From: an uncultured delta proteobacterium
GTDB taxonomy: Bacteria > Desulfobacterota > Desulfovibrionia > Desulfovibrionales > Desulfovibrionaceae
NCBI GenBank assembly: GCA_903835685.1
Contig: CAILNX010000032.1
Location: 1 to 64,000 of the forward strand
Direction of reading: 5' to 3'
Length of the DNA: 64,000 nt
How positions within the stretch are numbered: the stretch's first letter is position 1; each line of letters begins with the position of its first letter. Shown here piece by piece: positions 1-6,190 of this stretch. The notes under the pieces were generated by a model, which searched no databases, was not told the DNA's origin, and saw only the letters and a program-made list of their open reading frames with translations. The translations under genes were made by a program, and so were the position numbers.

Positions 1-2
1 AC

Positions 3-83
3 CTTGCGCATCATTTTGAACGTGATCCCAATGATGGATTTGATGTTGAAAAGGAACCGGCTGCGAAGCCTGCCGGTCTTTAG
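3..83 (+). CDS. Possible C-terminus of an IS200-type TnpA transposase (partial)
   Basis: The plus frame read from base 3 is open from the window edge to a TAG at 81-83. It encodes a 26-residue tail containing HHFERDPNDGFDVE. Short acidic tails of this kind are common at the end of small Y1 (HUH) transposases, where a His-His-Phe-Glu stretch follows the last helix. No catalytic motif lies inside the window, so the identity depends on the adjacent hairpins. The minus frame is also open here, and this could be chance coding potential. Confidence 0.35.
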   Translation, partial: LAHHFERDPNDGFDVEKEPAAKPAGL

Positions 84-111
84 CTGGACTTTCAGTCCGC
101 TGTAACAAAAC

Positions 112-132
112 CCACCAGCTTTTAGCTGGTGG
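112..132. repeat. Perfect 9-bp hairpin of the IS end
   Basis: CCACCAGCT (112-120) and AGCTGGTGG (124-132) form a perfect stem around a TTT loop. It is probably the right-end recognition hairpin of the IS200/IS605-like element, and it lies at the point where the minus-strand gene loses plausible protein sequence. Confidence 0.6.
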
Positions 133-139
133 TTGTTTA

Positions 140-848
140 GTATCCATATTCTTGGGTCTTTAACAATGGCTTCAATTAATGCCGTGCATAATTGCTTTCT
201 TCCTATGAAGTGTTCAAATCCCTTTTCGAGCAACATGTACAACCCGTCGCTTACTGCAAACGGGGAAGAATTGCCTGCAAGTGCATCTTGATCGGCTTGA
301 GCTTCTATTCTATCTAGCAGATCATGAAGCTCTGCTTCACTTTTTACTTTTTCAGTTGAGTCACCTTTTCGAATATAAATATCGCCACGTCTTATACCAA
401 AACTTTCTTTGGGGCAAAAATCTTTGCTGGCTAGAGCTGGAATGCGCCTTCTTTTCCTCTTTTTTGAAGAGCGAATGTATATAATTGAAAACAATTTTGT
501 AGAATTTTGAATATGTAACTCATGGTTGACTACGTCAACATCTATATCAAGGCCACACGCTTTTCTGATTTTATCGCGGAGCATTTTCGAGTCATACGGT
601 AAATGGGTGGCAATACCAAGTGGTTTCCAGGTTTTATCCTGTACTCCAACAATTATATATCCTCCACCTACGTTTTTAAATGCAAGGATATCTCGTGTAA
701 ATCCACAAAGTTCAATATCGTTTTCAATGTGTAAGAGTTCTTTATAGTCAAGCCATTCGCATTCGCATTTGCAATTTATTAAGTACCTGAGAGCGTCACT
801 GCTTATGTCGCCATCTTGTATCATTCTTTCAAGAACAGAAAAGTTCAT
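140..848 (-). pseudogene. AlbA_2/Schlafen-type DNA-binding domain protein, 3' end cut by the IS
   Basis: The minus frame opens at an ATG (848-846) preceded by AAGGGAGG at 5-nt spacing. It runs open for about 236 codons to the IS end, then continues as low-plausibility sequence to the window edge. Residues around 30-75 show the AlbA_2 (Schlafen AlbA-like, formerly divergent AAA_4) signature: WLDYKELLHIENDI, an RDILAFKN stretch and the GGGYIIVGVQD core. A KRKRRR basic stretch and a conserved-looking RRGDIYIRKGDST segment follow. AlbA_2 proteins act as DNA- or RNA-binding regulators and often occur in mobile or defence islands; the role here is unknown. Codon use is AT-rich, unlike the host genes to the right, indicating transfer. 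No in-frame stop is seen before the window edge, so a fused tail might be translated. Confidence 0.65.
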
Positions 849-1331
849 AGGCCTCCCTTGCAAAAGGACGGTTGGAAATATCTAGCTGAATTCCCAGACA
901 ATTCCTCAAAATTTAATGTTAACTGCTTAGCGTTAAGCAAGAAGCGAAAGATTTCTTTTCTTTGCTCGTTTAATTTGGTTCCCTTGGTGTACGATAACCT
1001 TATATTTTTTGTCAATGCCGTGGACGCTAACAGAATATATTTCTACTCGATACCCGATACCCCGGCGCTACCCCTGCCATGTTCAACCATCTCGCCAAGT
1101 TGCCGGAGTAGGGAACTTCCACCTTTTAAGACTCTGCTACCCTTCCTCTCATGACATTGCCTTCATGGATATTCCACGATTGCATTGGGAAATAGCCCTG
1201 ACTTACGAGCTGCCCCAGTACGGCGGCGAGAGCCCGCAGCCGCCGGGAGGGGGAGCGAGCACCGGATTCGCGCGGAGCGGGGCCATGGTTAAAGACGGAA
1301 GAAGAAATTTTGGGTGAAGGCAAAAATCTTA
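849..1331. other. AT-rich intergenic region with a GC-rich island
   Basis: No convincing gene is present. The left part is AT-rich and contains a short palindrome, GCTTAGCGTTAAGC at 925-938, about 80 nt upstream of the minus-strand AlbA_2 gene, which could be an operator. Near 1200 the base composition changes abruptly to a GC-rich segment of about 90 bases with an inverted repeat (CGGCGGC at 1221-1227, GCCGCCG at 1239-1245). Open frames here (for example 816-1154 and 1009-1317) have no ribosome binding site and no recognisable protein features. The composition change may mark the left boundary of the integrated replicon. Confidence 0.5.
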
Positions 1332-1375
1332 TTGACAGAAAAATAAACATATTTTATACATCCACCATAAATATG
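1332..1375 (+). promoter_or_regulatory. Sigma-70 promoter and candidate operator for the RHH gene
   Basis: TTGACA at 1332-1337 and TATACA at 1355-1360 are separated by 17 bases, a near-ideal sigma-70 promoter. An imperfect inverted repeat, CATATTTTAT (1348-1357) and ATAAATATG (1367-1375), overlaps the -10 box. RHH repressors such as CopG bind operators placed this way to repress their own promoter, so autoregulation by the product of the next gene is likely. Confidence 0.65.
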
Positions 1376-1384
1376 GGGGGCAGC

Positions 1385-1675
1385 ATGGCGAAACCAAAGA
1401 AAAACGAAGATGAAAAGCGGAAGAATGTCACCATCACGCTTGATCCTGAAGTTCTTCAACGCGTCGAAAAACTTGCAGATTTTATAGAAATTCCTCGCAG
1501 CAAAGCTTTTGAGAACTTGCTGATTATCGGCCTCGACATGATTGAGGATTTGGAAAAATTCAAGCTGATTACAATCGGCAAGTGGATTAAGCAAGGCACG
1601 AAACGATTGCGTGAGAGTTTCCAGCGGACTGCGGGAGAATTGGAAGAGGAGTCAAAGGCAACAGGCAAGGAATAA
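1385..1675 (+). CDS. Ribbon-helix-helix (CopG/Arc-like) protein
   Basis: The 96-residue protein starts at an ATG preceded by a GGGGGG purine tract; an upstream in-frame start at 1310 lies before the promoter and is rejected. Residues 14-50 match a ribbon-helix-helix fold: a VTITLDPEV strand, helix A with RVEKLADFIE, then IPRSKAFENLLIIGL. This family forms dimers that insert a beta ribbon in the DNA major groove. The charged C-terminus (about residues 70-96, rich in Glu and Lys) is longer than in CopG (45 residues) and may mediate oligomerisation. It lies between a sigma-70 promoter with a palindromic operator and the rep gene, suggesting copy control or autoregulation of the copG type. An orphan antitoxin is the alternative, but no toxin gene is adjacent. 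Confidence 0.8.
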   Translation: MAKPKKNEDEKRKNVTITLDPEVLQRVEKLADFIEIPRSKAFENLLIIGLDMIEDLEKFKLITIGKWIKQGTKRLRESFQRTAGELEEESKATGKE

Positions 1676-1721
1676 AAAAGAAGCCTTGGATCAAAGGGCG
1701 GCTACCCTCCCCAAGGCTTCT
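1674..1721 (-). terminator. Intrinsic terminator of the antisense RNA
   Basis: An 11-bp perfect stem, AGAAGCCTTGG (1679-1689) with CCAAGGCTTCT (1711-1721), encloses a loop that contains a smaller AGGG/CCCT hairpin. On the minus strand the stem is followed by TTTTTT then ATT, the canonical U-tract. On the plus strand no T-run follows, so the terminator is oriented toward the RHH gene. Its U-tract overlaps the RHH stop codon. Confidence 0.75.
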
Positions 1722-1754
1722 CGGCAAACACCCCTAAACAGTCGTTCAAGGGCT
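1674..1754 (-). ncRNA. Predicted counter-transcribed RNA of the replicon
   Basis: A minus-strand promoter at 1789-1761 should start transcription near 1754. An intrinsic terminator lies at 1721-1674, giving an RNA of about 80 nt fully complementary to the RHH-rep intergenic mRNA. In pMV158-like plasmids a small antisense RNA between copG and repB lowers Rep synthesis; the position and orientation here are equivalent. The RNA 5' end overlaps the first anti-Shine-Dalgarno repeat. This is sequence-based prediction only; the transcript is not shown. Confidence 0.6.
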
Positions 1755-1815
1755 CCTTTCTAGATAGGGATTCCCCGAAATCCTGTCAATGAAGGGCTCC
1801 TTGAAGGCAAAGGAG
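1748..1815 (+). promoter_or_regulatory. Direct repeats complementary to the rep ribosome binding site
   Basis: AAGGGCTCCTT occurs at 1748-1758 and again at 1792-1802. Each copy contains CTCCTT, which is complementary to the rep Shine-Dalgarno AAGGAG at 1810-1815. The proximal copy forms a 6-bp stem with a 7-nt loop that would hide the ribosome binding site. The distal copy can compete for the same bases and lies at the 5' end of the predicted antisense RNA. This suggests translational control of Rep by alternative RNA structures. Confidence 0.55.
1761..1789 (-). promoter_or_regulatory. Minus-strand sigma-70 promoter inside the RHH-rep gap
   Basis: Read on the minus strand, TTGACA (1789-1784) is followed by a 17-base spacer and TATCTA (1766-1761). 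No minus-strand gene lies downstream before the terminator at 1721-1674, so the unit most simply makes a short untranslated RNA. Confidence 0.7.
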
Positions 1816-1821
1816 TCTTTC

Positions 1822-3042
1822 ATGCTCGAAACATCCGTCAACACCCCTTGCACAGTCCTTGGCTTTGTCCCCTCTCCACTCCCAGCGGGTGCGCCACCTA
1901 GTAACACAGCACCCGCAAATTACAGAAGCGGCCCTTACCGTCTGCTACGACTCGGAGTGGACAGCCTTTACCTGTCCTTTTTCGGCGTCATATCGGCTGA
2001 TATGGACGCCACGCTTGCTGACCTCAAACTCAAGGGCCAGAACATTCTGCCCATTATCCGGTCACAGGCCCAAATCCGCCTCGGGGACCATCTTTTCGAG
2101 GTGAAGGGGTGGGGCCGGAAAAGATTTTCATACGTCATCGTTGACAACTGGTTCAATATCCAAATCGCAGGACCTGATTCAAAAAGTCTCCCCCTCGCCT
2201 ACGTCCAAATATCCAGCGAATTTCTTTCCGCCCATTCCGTACTTGAAGCTGTCGCCATCCTCTCCCCCCTGATAGCCCAGCTCGGGGCCGTGAGGGGCGA
2301 GGCCCGGGTGAGCCGTGTTGATCTGTTCGCGGATTTCATCGCGTATTGGGACGTTCAGGCTTTGGAGCCCGAAGCCTGGATCACTTACGCCAAGGTCAAG
2401 CGCAAGTACCATGAGAACAACCGGGCTTCTTCCTGGGACTTCGGCATGGGCGGGATGGTGTCGGCCCGGCTCTATGACAAGACCCTGGAAATCGGCAAAT
2501 CTCAAAAAGACTATCTCAAGGGCCTGTGGGCCGCTGCTGGGTGGAAGGATGAAACCGTCTGGCGCCTGGAATTTGAATTGAAACGTCAAGTCCTCAAGGA
2601 AATGAGCGTATCCTCTGTTCCCGAACTGGTCCAAAACCTCCCCGGCCTCTGGAAATACGGAACTGAGAAATGGCTTCGCCTTGCCCTCCCGGACCCACGC
2701 GACAGCAACCAAAGCCGTTGGCCCACCCATCCCGTGTGGTCGGCCTTGGCCGGTGTGAGCTGGGAAGGGTACGAGAGCCCCTTGCTCACCCGTGCCCGAA
2801 AGGAGCGTGTTCCTTCTGACGAGTATCTCTTCAAGGCCGGTCTGGCCCCTCTCACCTCATTCATGGTCCGTGAAGGCATAGCCGACATCTACGAGGCCTC
2901 CCGGCTCTTCTTGGCCAAGGCTACCCGTTACCACTTCGAGCAAAGTGGATTCCGCCTTGATGGTTTCGACAACTACATTGACGTCAAAGTGGCTGAGAAA
3001 TGCCGCAAGTTCAACTTGGTTATGGAGCCCCGCAACGTCTGA
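1822..3042 (+). CDS. Rolling-circle-type replication initiation factor (Rep_trans-like)
   Basis: The 406-residue protein starts at ATG 1822, six bases after an AAAGGAG site; an in-frame ATG at 1789 has no such site. The central part carries features of the phage/plasmid replication initiation factor family (PF02486): RVSRVDLFADF near residue 162, GMVSARLYDKTLEIGKS near 213, and a WRLEFELKR strand near 250. Members nick a double-strand origin and prime rolling-circle replication of plasmids, Tn916-type elements or filamentous phages. The catalytic Tyr cannot be assigned with certainty. The gene follows the RHH protein and predicted antisense RNA and precedes excisionase and integrase genes, so it probably replicates the excised element. 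Base composition is lower in GC than ettA beside it. Confidence 0.75.
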   Translation: MLETSVNTPCTVLGFVPSPLPAGAPPSNTAPANYRSGPYRLLRLGVDSLYLSFFGVISADMDATLADLKLKGQNILPIIRSQAQIRLGDHLFEVKGWGRKRFSYVIVDNWFNIQIAGPDSKSLPLAYVQISSEFLSAHSVLEAVAILSPLIAQLGAVRGEARVSRVDLFADFIAYWDVQALEPEAWITYAKVKRKYHENNRASSWDFGMGGMVSARLYDKTLEIGKSQKDYLKGLWAAAGWKDETVWRLEFELKRQVLKEMSVSSVPELVQNLPGLWKYGTEKWLRLALPDPRDSNQSRWPTHPVWSALAGVSWEGYESPLLTRARKERVPSDEYLFKAGLAPLTSFMVREGIADIYEASRLFLAKATRYHFEQSGFRLDGFDNYIDVKVAEKCRKFNLVMEPRNV

Positions 3043-3287
3043 TCTACCCTGAACCGGCGGCAAAGCTATGGAAACCGGATTATCTTCTCTCGGAAAGAAG
3101 GCGCTGGCCTGCCCCAGTATGTACGAGAGCCAATGTTAGCCGTCACTGCATCCTGGGCGAGGGTTGTGCCTGGACTCAAGGCCATCCTTCCCCCCAGGGG
3201 CAGGCCAGCACCTTGCCCGTTAGCGAAAAGATATGGAATTTCATGCGCTAGCAAAAAACGGTATGTGCTCATTCGGTAGAGGCAGAT

Positions 3288-3623
3288 ATGGAACTAACAA
3301 CCCTTCCCGAAATTCTCACCTCAAAGCAGGTAGCTGCGGTCTTGCTTGTCCACGATAGGACGGCTAGAGAACATTGGGAGAAGATGGGTGGGTTTCGGAT
3401 TGGTTCCAAATACCGTATGCATAGATCAAAATTGCTCAAGTACATGGGGGTAGAGGATGCCATTCTTCCGAGAGAGAGATCAGAAATGGCTGGGACAAGT
3501 CCGGCATGCAGGGAAGAAGCACCTTTCAGTCCCGTTCGATACGAAGGCACAGGCCAAGGCATGGGAAGCCGAGACCAGACTCAAGCAGTCTGCCAGGCCA
3601 AGTCACGGCATGGCCTGTGGTGA
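3288..3623 (+). CDS. Excisionase-like helix-turn-helix protein
   Basis: Residues 9-55 resemble a MerR/excisionase-type winged helix (HTH_17): LTSKQVAAVL, a helix with DRTAREHWEKMG, then FRIGSKYRMHRSKLLKYM. Such small proteins direct excision by tyrosine integrases. The first 245 bases upstream hold no clear gene. The frame runs on past the integrase start and overlaps it by 167 bases, in the frame one base behind. The tail after residue 56 (Pro, Arg and Gly-rich) looks like out-of-frame integrase sequence, so the natural C-terminus may have been extended by loss of a stop codon. Frameshifting into the integrase is unlikely, because a TAG sits directly before the integrase start in that frame. 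Confidence 0.6.
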   Translation: MELTTLPEILTSKQVAAVLLVHDRTAREHWEKMGGFRIGSKYRMHRSKLLKYMGVEDAILPRERSEMAGTSPACREEAPFSPVRYEGTGQGMGSRDQTQAVCQAKSRHGLW

Positions 3624-4500
3624 TTGGCTGGATCAGTACCTCGACTATTGCAAACTCCGCTTCGTCGGCCGTACCTACCAGACCAAGGTTCAAATCTTCC
3701 GAGAGTTCGTAGCCTTTGCAGGGCCAGGCATGAAGGTGGAAGGAATCACACCTGGCCTGGCACTGGACTACCAAAGGGATGTAGCCGAGCGCCGGACCCC
3801 GGGAGCGGCGAACGTCCACAGGACGCATTTGATGGCGGCCTGGTCATGGGGGCACAAGTTTCTGGCTTTCCCGTTGCCTGCCCCTTTCCTCCTCGTGGGC
3901 AAACTCCCTGCCAGGAAGAAAGAACGGTATATCCCTCCTATGTCCGACTTCCTCAAGGTTCTGGACGCCGCCGAAGGACAGGACCATGTACTTCTTCTGA
4001 CCTACCTGCACACGGCGGCCAGGAAGAACGAACTTTTCTCCGCTACTTGGTCAGACGTGGACTTCGGGGTCCAGCGGATTCGGCTCTGGACGAACAAGAC
4101 CGGGGGGAAAGGACGGAAGGCCGCGTGGATCGACATGACCGACGAACTGGCCCGGGTACTGGCATCCCATCGCAGAAAGAACCCGGACAGCCTCTTCCTG
4201 TTCACGAAGGCGAATGGCAAGCCGTACAGGAGCCGCCACACCTGGTTGAAACCTTTCTGCGCCCAGGTCGGGGTGAAGCCGTTCGACTTCCACTCGATAC
4301 GGCATTTGACGGCCACCTACCTCATTGATAAGCAGTTCCCTCTCCCTGTGGTGCAGTCCATCTTGAGGCATTCGAGCATTTCGGTCACGGCCATATACCT
4401 GCACTCCCTCCAGCCGCAGAAGGCGGCCCTCATGACCCTGCCCACGGGGAAAAGCCAACAGGAAGCCAACAGCTCAAAAATACATAAAGGAAATGAATAG
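3457..4500 (+). CDS. int: Tyrosine recombinase (phage-type integrase)
   Basis: The 347-residue integrase starts at ATG 3457: its frame has a TAG at 3451-3453 and a GGGGG site six bases upstream. An Arm-DNA-binding-like N-terminus (residues 1-45) and a SAM-like core-binding domain (about 50-140) precede the catalytic domain (about 160-330). The catalytic residues are visible: Arg in TAARKNELF, a beta-hairpin Lys in TNKTGGKGRK, His and Arg in HSIRHLTATYL, His in LRHSSIS and the nucleophile Tyr in TAIYLHS near residue 314. It catalyses site-specific integration and excision, presumably with the upstream HTH protein. The gene ends one base before the probable ettA start, so the attachment site should lie near here. 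Confidence 0.93.
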   Translation: MPFFRERDQKWLGQVRHAGKKHLSVPFDTKAQAKAWEAETRLKQSARPSHGMACGDWLDQYLDYCKLRFVGRTYQTKVQIFREFVAFAGPGMKVEGITPGLALDYQRDVAERRTPGAANVHRTHLMAAWSWGHKFLAFPLPAPFLLVGKLPARKKERYIPPMSDFLKVLDAAEGQDHVLLLTYLHTAARKNELFSATWSDVDFGVQRIRLWTNKTGGKGRKAAWIDMTDELARVLASHRRKNPDSLFLFTKANGKPYRSRHTWLKPFCAQVGVKPFDFHSIRHLTATYLIDKQFPLPVVQSILRHSSISVTAIYLHSLQPQKAALMTLPTGKSQQEANSSKIHKGNE

Positions 4501-4501
4501 C

Positions 4502-6190
4502 ATGGCGCAAGTTGAAGCGAACAAGATCATCTACTCCATGGTTGGAGTGAGCAAATTCTACGAGAAGAAACCCGTGCTGAAGGACATCTACCTGTCCTAT
4601 TTCTACGGGGCCAAGATCGGGGTCCTGGGCCTGAACGGCTCGGGCAAGAGCTCTCTGCTGCGCATCCTGGCAGGCGTGGACCACGATTTCCAGGGCAAGA
4701 CCATCTTGAGCCCTGGCCACACCGTGGGCTTTCTGGAGCAGGAGCCCGTGCTCGACGACACCAAGACCGTGCGCGAGGTGGTGGCCGAGGCCGTGCAGGA
4801 GATCGTGGACCTTTTGGCCGAGTTCGAGCGCATCAACGAGAAATTCGCCGAGCCCATGACCGACGACGAGATGGACAAGCTCATCTCCAAGCAGGCCGAG
4901 GTCCAGGAAAAGCTGGACGCCTGCAACGCCTGGGAGCTGGACAGCCGCCTGGACATGGCCATGGACGCCCTGCGCTGCCCGCCCCCGGACACCCCGGTCA
5001 AGGTCATCTCCGGCGGTGAGCGCCGCCGGGTGGCCCTGTGCCGTCTGCTCCTCCAGCAGCCGGACATCCTGCTCCTGGACGAGCCCACCAACCATCTGGA
5101 CGCCGAAACCGTGGCCTGGCTGGAGCACCACCTCCAGAAATACCCGGGCACGGTCATTGCCGTGACCCACGACCGCTATTTCCTGGACAATGTGGCCGGG
5201 TGGATTCTGGAGTTGGACCGGGGCCGGGGCATCCCCTGGAAGGGCAACTACTCCTCCTGGCTGGAGCAGAAGCAGGCCCGCCTGGCCCAGGAGGAAAAGA
5301 CCGAGAGCGAACGGCAGAAGACGCTCGAACGGGAACTGGAGTGGATACGCATGAGCCCCAAGGGCCGCCACGCCAAGAGCAAGGCCCGCATCAGCGCCTA
5401 TGAGGCCATGGTCAGCCAGGAGAGTGAGAAGAAGGCCAAGGACCTGGAAATCTACATCCCGCCCGGGCCGCGCCTGGGCGACCTGGTGGTGGAGGCCACG
5501 GGCGTGGCCAAGGCCTTTGGCGACCGGCTGCTGTTCGAGAACATGGATTTCCTCATTCCCCCCGGGGCCATCGTGGGCATCATCGGCCCCAACGGCGCGG
5601 GCAAGACCACGCTCTTCCGCATGATTACCGGGCTGGAAACCCCGGACGCCGGGAGCTTGCGCGTGGGGCCGTCGGTGAAGACGGCCTACGTGGACCAGGC
5701 CCGGGAGTCCCTGGACCCGGAAAAAACCGTGTACGAGGCCGTGAGCGAGGGCCGGGAGACGGTCATGCTCGGAACCCGGGAGGTCAATGCCCGGGCCTAC
5801 ATCGGCAAGTTCAACCTGACCGGCTCGGACCAGCAGAAGAAGGTCACGGCCCTGTCCGGGGGGGAGCGCAACCGGCTGCACATGGCCTGCATCTTAAAAT
5901 CCGGGGCCAACCTCCTGCTCCTGGACGAGCCCACCAACGACCTGGACGTGAACACCATGCGCGCCCTGGAAGACGCCCTGGAGAATTTCGCCGGGTGCGC
6001 GCTCATCGTGAGCCACGACCGCTGGTTTCTGGACCGGGTGGCCACGCACATGCTGGCCTTCGAAGGGGACAGCTCCGTGGTCTGGTTCGACGGCAATTAT
6101 TCGGAGTACGAGGCCGACCGCAAGGCCCGCCTGGGCGTGGCCGCCGACCAGCCGCATAGGATCAAGTACCGGCATTTCACCCGGGCCTAA
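4502..6190 (+). CDS. ettA: EttA, energy-dependent translational throttle (ABC-F)
   Basis: This soluble twin-ATPase of 562 residues binds the ribosomal E site and gates early elongation according to the ATP/ADP ratio. Domain 1 has Walker A GLNGSGKS (about residue 43), signature [10 protein letters not shown] and Walker [12 protein letters not shown]. Domain 2 has [10 protein letters not shown] (about 361), [10 protein letters not shown] and [11 protein letters not shown]. The long P-site tRNA-interaction linker between domains includes a [13 protein letters not shown] segment. No membrane segments are present. I chose ATG 4502 because the family begins MAQ and an AAAGGA site lies about 11 bases upstream; ATG 4493 is in frame but crowds that site. 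The mobile element ends directly upstream, so the native promoter may have been replaced. Confidence 0.93.

Follow-up and report, generated by a model that had tools for sequence, protein, structure and literature searches.

Among the closest described systems, plasmid pMV158 has a Rep_2 initiator and RNAII, a 48-nucleotide (nt) antisense RNA of one hairpin that acts next to the ribosome site (PMC5703833 and PMC4485353, in the passages cited). In the pT181 family of staphylococcal Rep_trans plasmids, the origin lies within rep, and the protein sequence encoded there is dispensable; pT181 itself makes an 87-nt antisense RNA to the rep leader, with a pre-emptor, and transcription is stopped (same passages of PMC5703833). 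Those passages also describe pSK41, in which an RNAI of about 83 nt with two stem-loops drives a hairpin over the ribosome site and the initiator is of the RepA_N type with theta replication, and pIP501, in which CopR, RNAIII, and repR combine a small repressor and an antisense RNA with pT181-like attenuation. Here, we compare with these systems a locus at the left end of a 64-kb window, the whole stretch of DNA analysed, which is the first part of the 122-kb contig CAILNX010000032.1 of an uncultured Desulfovibrionaceae bacterium and begins at the contig edge. We read this locus as the control and replication end of an integrated rolling-circle, plasmid-like element, in which repression by a ribbon-helix-helix (RHH) protein and a pT181/pSK41-like antisense switch would act on an initiator of the Rep_trans fold whose own gene would contain the origin; for this mechanism as a whole, we put the chances a little above even.

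The plus strand from 1332 to 4500 carries, in order, a promoter, an RHH-like gene, a leader, rep, a 245-nt gap, an excisionase-like gene, and a tyrosine integrase. The RHH gene and rep presumably share one operon, and its control features are as follows.

1332..1360, plus strand: promoter of the RHH-rep operon, TTGACA at 1332-1337, 17 nt, TATACA at 1355-1360 (read from the sequence)
1362..1379, no strand: imperfect palindrome CCACCATAAATATGGGGG across the expected start point, a candidate RHH operator
1385..1675, plus strand: RHH (CopG-like) repressor gene P0002, 96 amino acids (aa) (RHH_1 E 0.011; PHROG 4738 repressor E 0.0016)
1673..1721, minus strand: intrinsic terminator of the antisense unit, stem 1721-1679, then T6 (own terminator scan)
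1674..1754, minus strand: predicted antisense RNA of about 81 nt, two hairpins (fold -41.6 kcal/mol)
1741..1759, plus strand: leader segment I (pre-emptor), largely under the antisense RNA (direct repeat D4; folding)
1761..1789, minus strand: predicted antisense promoter, TTGACA at 1789-1784, 17 nt, TATCTA at 1766-1761 (weak -10)
1789..1808, plus strand: leader segment II, pairing with I (as 1791-1808) or III (as 1789-1802) (repeats, folding)
1810..1824, plus strand: leader segment III, Shine-Dalgarno AAGGAG at 1810-1815 and rep start ATG at 1822-1824
1822..3042, plus strand: rep, 406 aa, Rep_trans-fold rolling-circle initiator, motif R216-Y218-K220-E223
1885..1916, plus strand: probable double-strand origin, a covarying hairpin within the 5' end of rep whose arms are 1885-1892 and 1909-1916

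In the proposed mechanism, the RHH protein would repress the operon promoter, and Rep would be made only while its ribosome site is free. Folding suggests that segment I pairs with segment II during transcription of the leader, leaving the Shine-Dalgarno sequence of segment III free; judging from the anatomy, the antisense RNA would cover segment I, so that segment II is released and could pair with III to close the ribosome site. The integrase and excisionase may free the element as a circle, on which Rep would then nick the hairpin at 1885-1916. The two brakes would hold Rep low in the chromosome, where nicking of the origin would presumably be harmful.

The sequence-only reading had likened the module to the pMV158 type, operating in a Gram-negative sulfate reducer. 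The sulfate-reducer part of that claim is borne out by a dsrA gene above the family cut-off in the genome. The sequence also supports a repressor-like gene, a counter-transcript unit, and rep in an integrated element with a tyrosine integrase, and pMV158 has this gene order, presumably in one operon here too. Beyond the repressor, however, the likeness fails: pMV158 was rejected as the model because of the fold of Rep, which is that of Rep_trans rather than Rep_2, and the size of the predicted antisense RNA, about 81 nt with two hairpins rather than 48 nt with one, and the leader resembles a pre-emptor switch. With the pT181 family, the locus shares the Rep_trans fold and active-site motif and, as predicted counterparts, the origin inside rep, the antisense RNA to the leader, and the pre-emptor. 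It differs in its CopG-type repressor, which does not figure in the cited account of pT181, in its very distant Rep of 406 aa, and in being integrated in a dsrA-bearing chromosome. The predicted closing of the ribosome site by a two-stem-loop RNA of similar length recalls pSK41, from which the initiator and mode of replication set it apart, and pIP501 shares the small repressor and antisense RNA, but its repressor is a helix-turn-helix protein transcribed apart from repR, and transcription is stopped (PMC5703833, as cited above).

The assignment of Rep follows from its predicted structure and active site. Specifically, a model from 37 rows reached a mean predicted local distance difference test (pLDDT) score of 90 and a predicted template modeling score of 0.85, with residues 1-23 and 30-34 below a pLDDT of 50; a first model, from 12 rows, was poor (pLDDT 59.7) and was not used. 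Its only matches in the Protein Data Bank at E <0.001 were three Rep_trans initiators, whose fold is crescent-shaped, 4cij, 4cwe, and 4cwc (Foldseek E 5e-10 to 5e-8), with Z scores of 13.3, 11.5, and 11.3, against 6.3 for the next entry. Nine residues (D167, D171, G208, R216, Y218, K220, E223, R248, and E250) are invariant across the 37 rows, and the motif R-x-Y-x-K-x2-E has the same spacing as the RepDE active site, R189/Y191/K193/E196 (PMC4797284, in the part cited); particular acidic residues of Rep presumably bind metal. The sequence-only reading of a Rep_trans-like rep therefore stands by fold and motif and fails by Pfam score. The window Rep has no meaningful Pfam match; for PF02486 (Rep_trans) it has none at E up to 1 and falls short of the gathering score, 3 of the 37 rows match at E up to 0.1 (best 0.0047), and profile searches touched 4cwe at E 0.0061 with 14 rows and reached 4cij at just 0.15 with 37. 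Thus, Rep is a Rep_trans protein by predicted fold and motif, and not a scored member of PF02486. Its identity is up to 46% to rows of Pseudomonadota type, versus 21-23% to the five rows from its own family; in a tree of the 37 Reps, it lies outside a starred group (98/99) of these five and the long-branched L130, with no resolved position among the remaining rows.

The hairpin came to notice as near-identical DNA at the rep 5' end of locus L060, whose Rep is 37% identical, and of viral contig L082, whose Rep is 43% identical. A genome scan with these two Reps and that of the window returned 48 loci. Together with L082 and the window these make 50, of which 46 have the hairpin close to the 5' end of rep (L060 and L117 are one place, counted once; in L110, one of two scans found it). 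It was not found in L118, L121, L130, or L129, the last covered by one of the two scans. In an alignment of 45 rows, 42 of them distinct and L123 left out for internal duplication, 96.3% of the stem cells are paired, and six of seven pairs are altered on both sides. The number of cells so altered is 40, against 9.0 in shuffles, with 0 of 500 shuffles as high, a count that is not a probability because related rows inflate it; sliding the partners by 1-3 columns lowers the pairing to 24-51%. The hairpin lies within the longest rep open reading frame (ORF) in 39 of the 46 loci, in one frame throughout; in the other 7 it precedes the listed start, with its loop 37-46 nt ahead of that start in L117, L120, and L125; the peptide that it encodes in the window (residues 22-32) falls in the low-confidence N terminus of the Rep model. 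By analogy with the pT181 family, the hairpin is probably the double-strand origin.

Searches with the hairpin itself gave few sites. In viral contigs, a 16-mer search returned four loci, one beside a rep; the hairpin pattern with GTGCG matched two, both beside rep and integrase (L149 may duplicate L103), and the GGTACG version matched none. Among 395 genomes of the phylum, the pattern occurs at three sites in two genomes, namely the window, a rep relative already known, and an element lacking rep, compared with two sites for the pattern read backwards. At up to three mismatches, the hairpin core was not found beside the distant reps L015-L027 and L056-L075, L060 excepted; two three-mismatch matches in L073 lie elsewhere, not beside rep. 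Its letters, searched in the literature, returned only papers unrelated by title.

The leader carries an 18-nt repeat in two copies (83%, 11 nt exact) that gives segment II its choice of I or III, and which alone is only mildly unusual, since the 64 kb hold 15 exact 11-nt repeats within 60 nt. We placed the rep start at ATG 1822 rather than at ATG 1789 of the longest ORF because of the Shine-Dalgarno sequence at 1810-1815. Folding predicts two strong, mutually exclusive states: in growing transcripts, I:II is best at ends from 1800 to 1820 and II:III takes over at 1830, and with the antisense region 1722-1754 blocked, the unpaired probability of the Shine-Dalgarno sequence is 0.027. Against 500 shuffles of the left part, in which the Shine-Dalgarno sequence and start were retained, one was as good with the Shine-Dalgarno sequence open, six in overall stability, and six in nascent stability; eight equalled its closure under blocking, and one combined nascent stability and closure. 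The folding thus supports a leader resembling the pre-emptor switch of pT181 and pSK41. In pT181, the switch ends transcription (PMC5703833, as cited), whereas no T-run follows the II:III hairpin here, and there is no strict plus-strand terminator at that place, which makes translation a likelier target than transcription.

On the minus strand, the boxes TTGACA and TATCTA, 17 nt apart, and the terminator of the sequence-only reading were borne out. Our own scan of both strands of the 64 kb found 15 strict T6 terminators (8 minus and 7 plus, with a mean of 4.0 in five shuffles), and this one, at -26.6 kcal/mol, is the strongest. The predicted RNA would begin midway through segment I. The two strands of the window together contain TTGACA 10 times, two of these being the -35 boxes of the RHH and antisense promoters. 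The sigma-70 boxes before the RHH gene likewise stood, while a palindrome said to cover the -10 box did not: the palindrome AAAATAAACATATTTT, at 1340-1355, sits in the promoter spacer and touches the first base of the -10, and CCACCATAAATATGGGGG lies downstream, over the expected start point.

Several results weigh against the proposed mechanism, and the first of them concerns the boundaries of the element, whose remaining features are these.

1..141, no strand: repeat end at the contig edge, insertion sequence-like by eye, truncating the element on the left
142..848, minus strand: SLFN/AlbA_2-domain gene P0004, truncated by the 1-141 repeat, candidate cargo (PF04326 E 2.8e-11; PADLOC PDC-S50 E 7.6e-10)
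3098..3214, no strand: 18-nt inverted repeat (94%) with 81 nt separating its arms, in the gap between rep and the excisionase-like gene (xis), a candidate single-strand origin or part of an attachment site (repeat search)
3288..3623, plus strand: excisionase-like helix-turn-helix gene (HTH_17 E 0.0024, TIGR01764 E 0.00027, both below cut-offs)
3457..4500, plus strand: tyrosine integrase (int) (PF00589 E 2.6e-22)
4500..4513, no strand: probable right element boundary (homology start in best-matching relatives)

No direct repeat of at least 10 nt joins 4301-4700 to 1-1400, the left end being missing. Specifically, the element is open on the left because the window begins at the contig start, where the 1-141 repeat, identical at the starts of two further contigs of the same genome (C58, window 1-141; C62, window 24-142), cuts the AlbA_2 gene, whose ORF stays open into the repeat. 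On the right, homology to the locus of the next gene, an ABC-F ATPase gene by eye only, begins at 4512-4514 in the best-matching relatives, which places the edge between 4500 and 4513. Among ORFs up to 4500, the left part again missing, we recognised by eye no conjugation genes and no morphogenesis, coat, Zot, or secretin genes; an Rfam scan of 1-4600 gave two weak matches (E 2 and E 3.5), both outside the control module. The element may be dead, cut by the repeat and deprived of excision and replication, as the lost left end and the truncated AlbA_2 gene would have it, but the reading frames of rep, xis, and int are uninterrupted, and no catalytic residue of Rep is lost. We regard this as a real possibility that we nevertheless doubt; it is compatible with the mechanism and incompatible with present mobility.

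A second group of such points concerns the control module. The RHH_1 match is below the Pfam cut-off, so that the RHH identity is weak by profile, and the antisense -10 fits the consensus at three of six positions. A consensus scan of 800-4600 gave neither promoter nor the antisense terminator, its one promoter and one terminator both lying elsewhere (shuffle expectation 2.1 and 5.3; loop limit 8). No P0002-like gene was found in 49 rep-bearing loci (the 48 scan loci and L082; phmmer, E up to 0.1), nor any such relative in plasmids, 296 other genomes of the class, or viral contigs. A clear antisense unit was found in no relative, and a loose terminator scan gave minus-strand matches in 26 of 48 relatives, with no common place discerned; this part of the mechanism is thus without comparative support, the antisense RNA being a prediction from one sequence. 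In the unblocked leader, equilibrium gives II:III 0.50 and I:II 0.45 with a 5' end at 1741, 0.81 and 0.17 at 1676, and 0.995 and 0.000 at 1600 or earlier. The closed form is favoured more strongly as the 5' sequence lengthens, so the open form would need co-transcriptional folding.

It could accordingly be proposed that there is no antisense RNA, that the minus-strand terminator serves only to keep stray transcripts out of the RHH gene, and that the leader hairpin damps Rep constitutively. The poor -10, the lack of observed conservation, and a closed leader as the predicted minimum fit this proposal; it sits poorly with a perfect -35 at 17-nt spacing and an RNA start placed mid-segment I, and it would leave the I:II pairing with no obvious purpose. 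We consider it unlikely, and prefer the RHH-plus-antisense mechanism.

By eye, RHH-like genes stand upstream of rep in L029, L060/L117, L069, L073, L074, and L120, and the 1724-bp Mesotoga plasmid L029 has two annotated genes, rep and one for such a 73-aa protein. Pfam gave RHH_1 at E 0.064 for L073 and CopG_antitoxin at E 0.0018 for L120, where the gene stands 830 nt from rep; both are below cut-off and were not counted, and the others, L029 included, matched no RHH family.

The wider relationships of Rep bear on a different identity for the element. Of 287 other genomes in the family, 8 have distant rep homologues, in several cases next to xis and int genes, so the earlier claim that the group has no such integrated replicon was too strong; distant homologues also occur in 16 of 394 other genomes in the phylum sample, in five plasmid records, and in two Synechococcus phages, one of which, Yong-M4-251, is classed as an inovirus. 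No close relative was confirmed by single-protein scans of viral or genome contigs. Many inoviruses use Rep_trans initiators (PMC6668415, in the part cited), and Yong-M4-251 resembles the window in having an integrase after its Rep homologue, but from contig edge to integrase, the window shows no coat, Zot, or secretin gene by eye. Distant reps beside Zot- or secretin-like genes, also by eye, were seen in L025, L067, L070, L071, L072, and L075, which look like inovirus-like prophages. An alternative would make Rep a mobilisation relaxase, the hairpin an origin of transfer, and the whole an integrative mobilisable element. MOBT relaxases are related to Rep_trans proteins (PMC11389934, in the part cited), and a tyrosine integrase is present. 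On the other side, four of the five plasmid records are of 1.7-1.8 kb with little or nothing annotated besides rep, and there, as in the inovirus, Rep most likely replicates; placing the origin inside rep would follow pT181, and MOBT relaxases carry an added helix-turn-helix domain (same paper). We find this alternative quite improbable.

Two further measures of the hairpin count against its reading as an origin: one of five covariation measures (further pair types) was not above shuffles (379 of 500 as high), and hairpin stability by itself is unremarkable in two relatives (z 0.10 and -1.02, compared with -3.75 in the window). Locus L152 (contig G450:C18), in the same genome as L117, has integrase and hairpin, and no rep was found there, so the hairpin is kept without the gene; it shares with L117 three stretches of 73-87% identity (upstream region, leader with hairpin, and start of the integrase region), its integrase adjoins a tRNA-Leu region rather than the tRNA-Ala region of L117, and it is possibly a non-autonomous derivative. 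A similar long stretch upstream of the hairpin, with several inverted repeats, is seen in L117, L125, and L152. Among 48 relative loci, 43 have a usable start, chosen mechanically and in a few cases probably wrong; in 34 of these 43 the rep ribosome site is paired to a greater extent than the mean of its shuffles, and 19 lie in the lowest 10% (unpaired on average 0.246, versus 0.368). That the hairpin is instead a structured RNA regulating rep translation, as its place near the rep start and these many paired sites might suggest, is very improbable, the least probable of the readings considered, given only 2 G-U (as DNA, G-T) cells in 294, few for RNA, its position inside the ORF in most loci, and its persistence in L152.

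Returning to the rolling-circle reading, the rep-bearing relatives are themselves integrated and combine rep with int. Of 48 loci (L082 and 47 from the scan), 42 have an integrase no more than 1200 nt downstream in the same orientation, partial in L121, L123, and L124; the downstream sequence extends for 1500 nt or more in 39 of the 48. Just upstream of rep, 37 of 48 carry a gene of 180-360 aa, which ends roughly 180-370 nt ahead of the hairpin (L082-L128) and belongs to one of two similarity clusters, with 28 and 9 members; two members that were checked had no Pfam match. The adjacency of RHH and rep, put forward as a test in the sequence-only reading, thus told mostly against generality (0 of 49 loci), which does not refute the local module. 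Paired ribosome sites recur, and the RHH and antisense cassette is seen only in this window.

Upstream cargo was scanned with PADLOC at E up to 0.001 in three batches, with a single gene taken from every locus except L089, which contributed two. The window P0004 and nine genes picked by eye all matched (10 of 10, some weakly). Ten loci taken in order, skipping those already picked or showing defence-like domains, gave 1 of 10, and the skipped L087, L089, L097, and L099 with five further loci gave 5 of 9 (L111 weakly), for a total of 16 of 29 scanned loci, window included. In the gapless run L083-L103 (20 loci, L093 lacking cargo DNA upstream), 10 of 20 matched, 7 at E <1e-20. The matches in L084-L124 include GajA, a retron-type reverse transcriptase, Upx, NsnA, PDC-S20, and methyltransferases, some of them lone methyltransferases that need not be defence. 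Pfam found TIR, reverse transcriptase, OLD-like TOPRIM, GmrSD, KAP, and DNA methylase domains in ten chosen cargo genes, two having none. Thus, upstream of rep, about half of the loci sampled have a candidate anti-phage gene. Defence genes are also described in other islands that have a tyrosine integrase (PMC12595487, whose main text lacks the whole word "rolling-circle"). A literature search, with subscription papers mostly outside it, gave no title on such elements, the hairpin, or CopG and pre-emptor control of a Rep_trans gene, and the novelty is provisional for that reason.

More broadly, though tentatively and at less than even confidence, these loci may form a widespread family of integrated rolling-circle replicons with a variable cargo slot, often holding anti-phage genes, a covarying DNA hairpin embedded in rep as origin, and copy control as a swappable cassette. 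The family would be related to the replicons of inoviruses and mini-plasmids, but no capsid gene was noticed next to rep; most members would use the 180-360 aa protein and a paired ribosome site, and the window a repressor and pT181-like switch. The hairpin marks the rep-int family in Nitrosomonas, other Beta- and Gammaproteobacteria, Deltaproteobacteria, and Planctomycetes records, and in this genome, and it makes a direct nicking test possible. If this picture is true, the pT181-style origin in rep and antisense pre-emptor control, studied in Gram-positive plasmids, would extend to Gram-negative integrated elements, and excision followed by burst replication could raise the dose of defence cargo, the cargo slot connecting small replicons to the spread of anti-phage systems.

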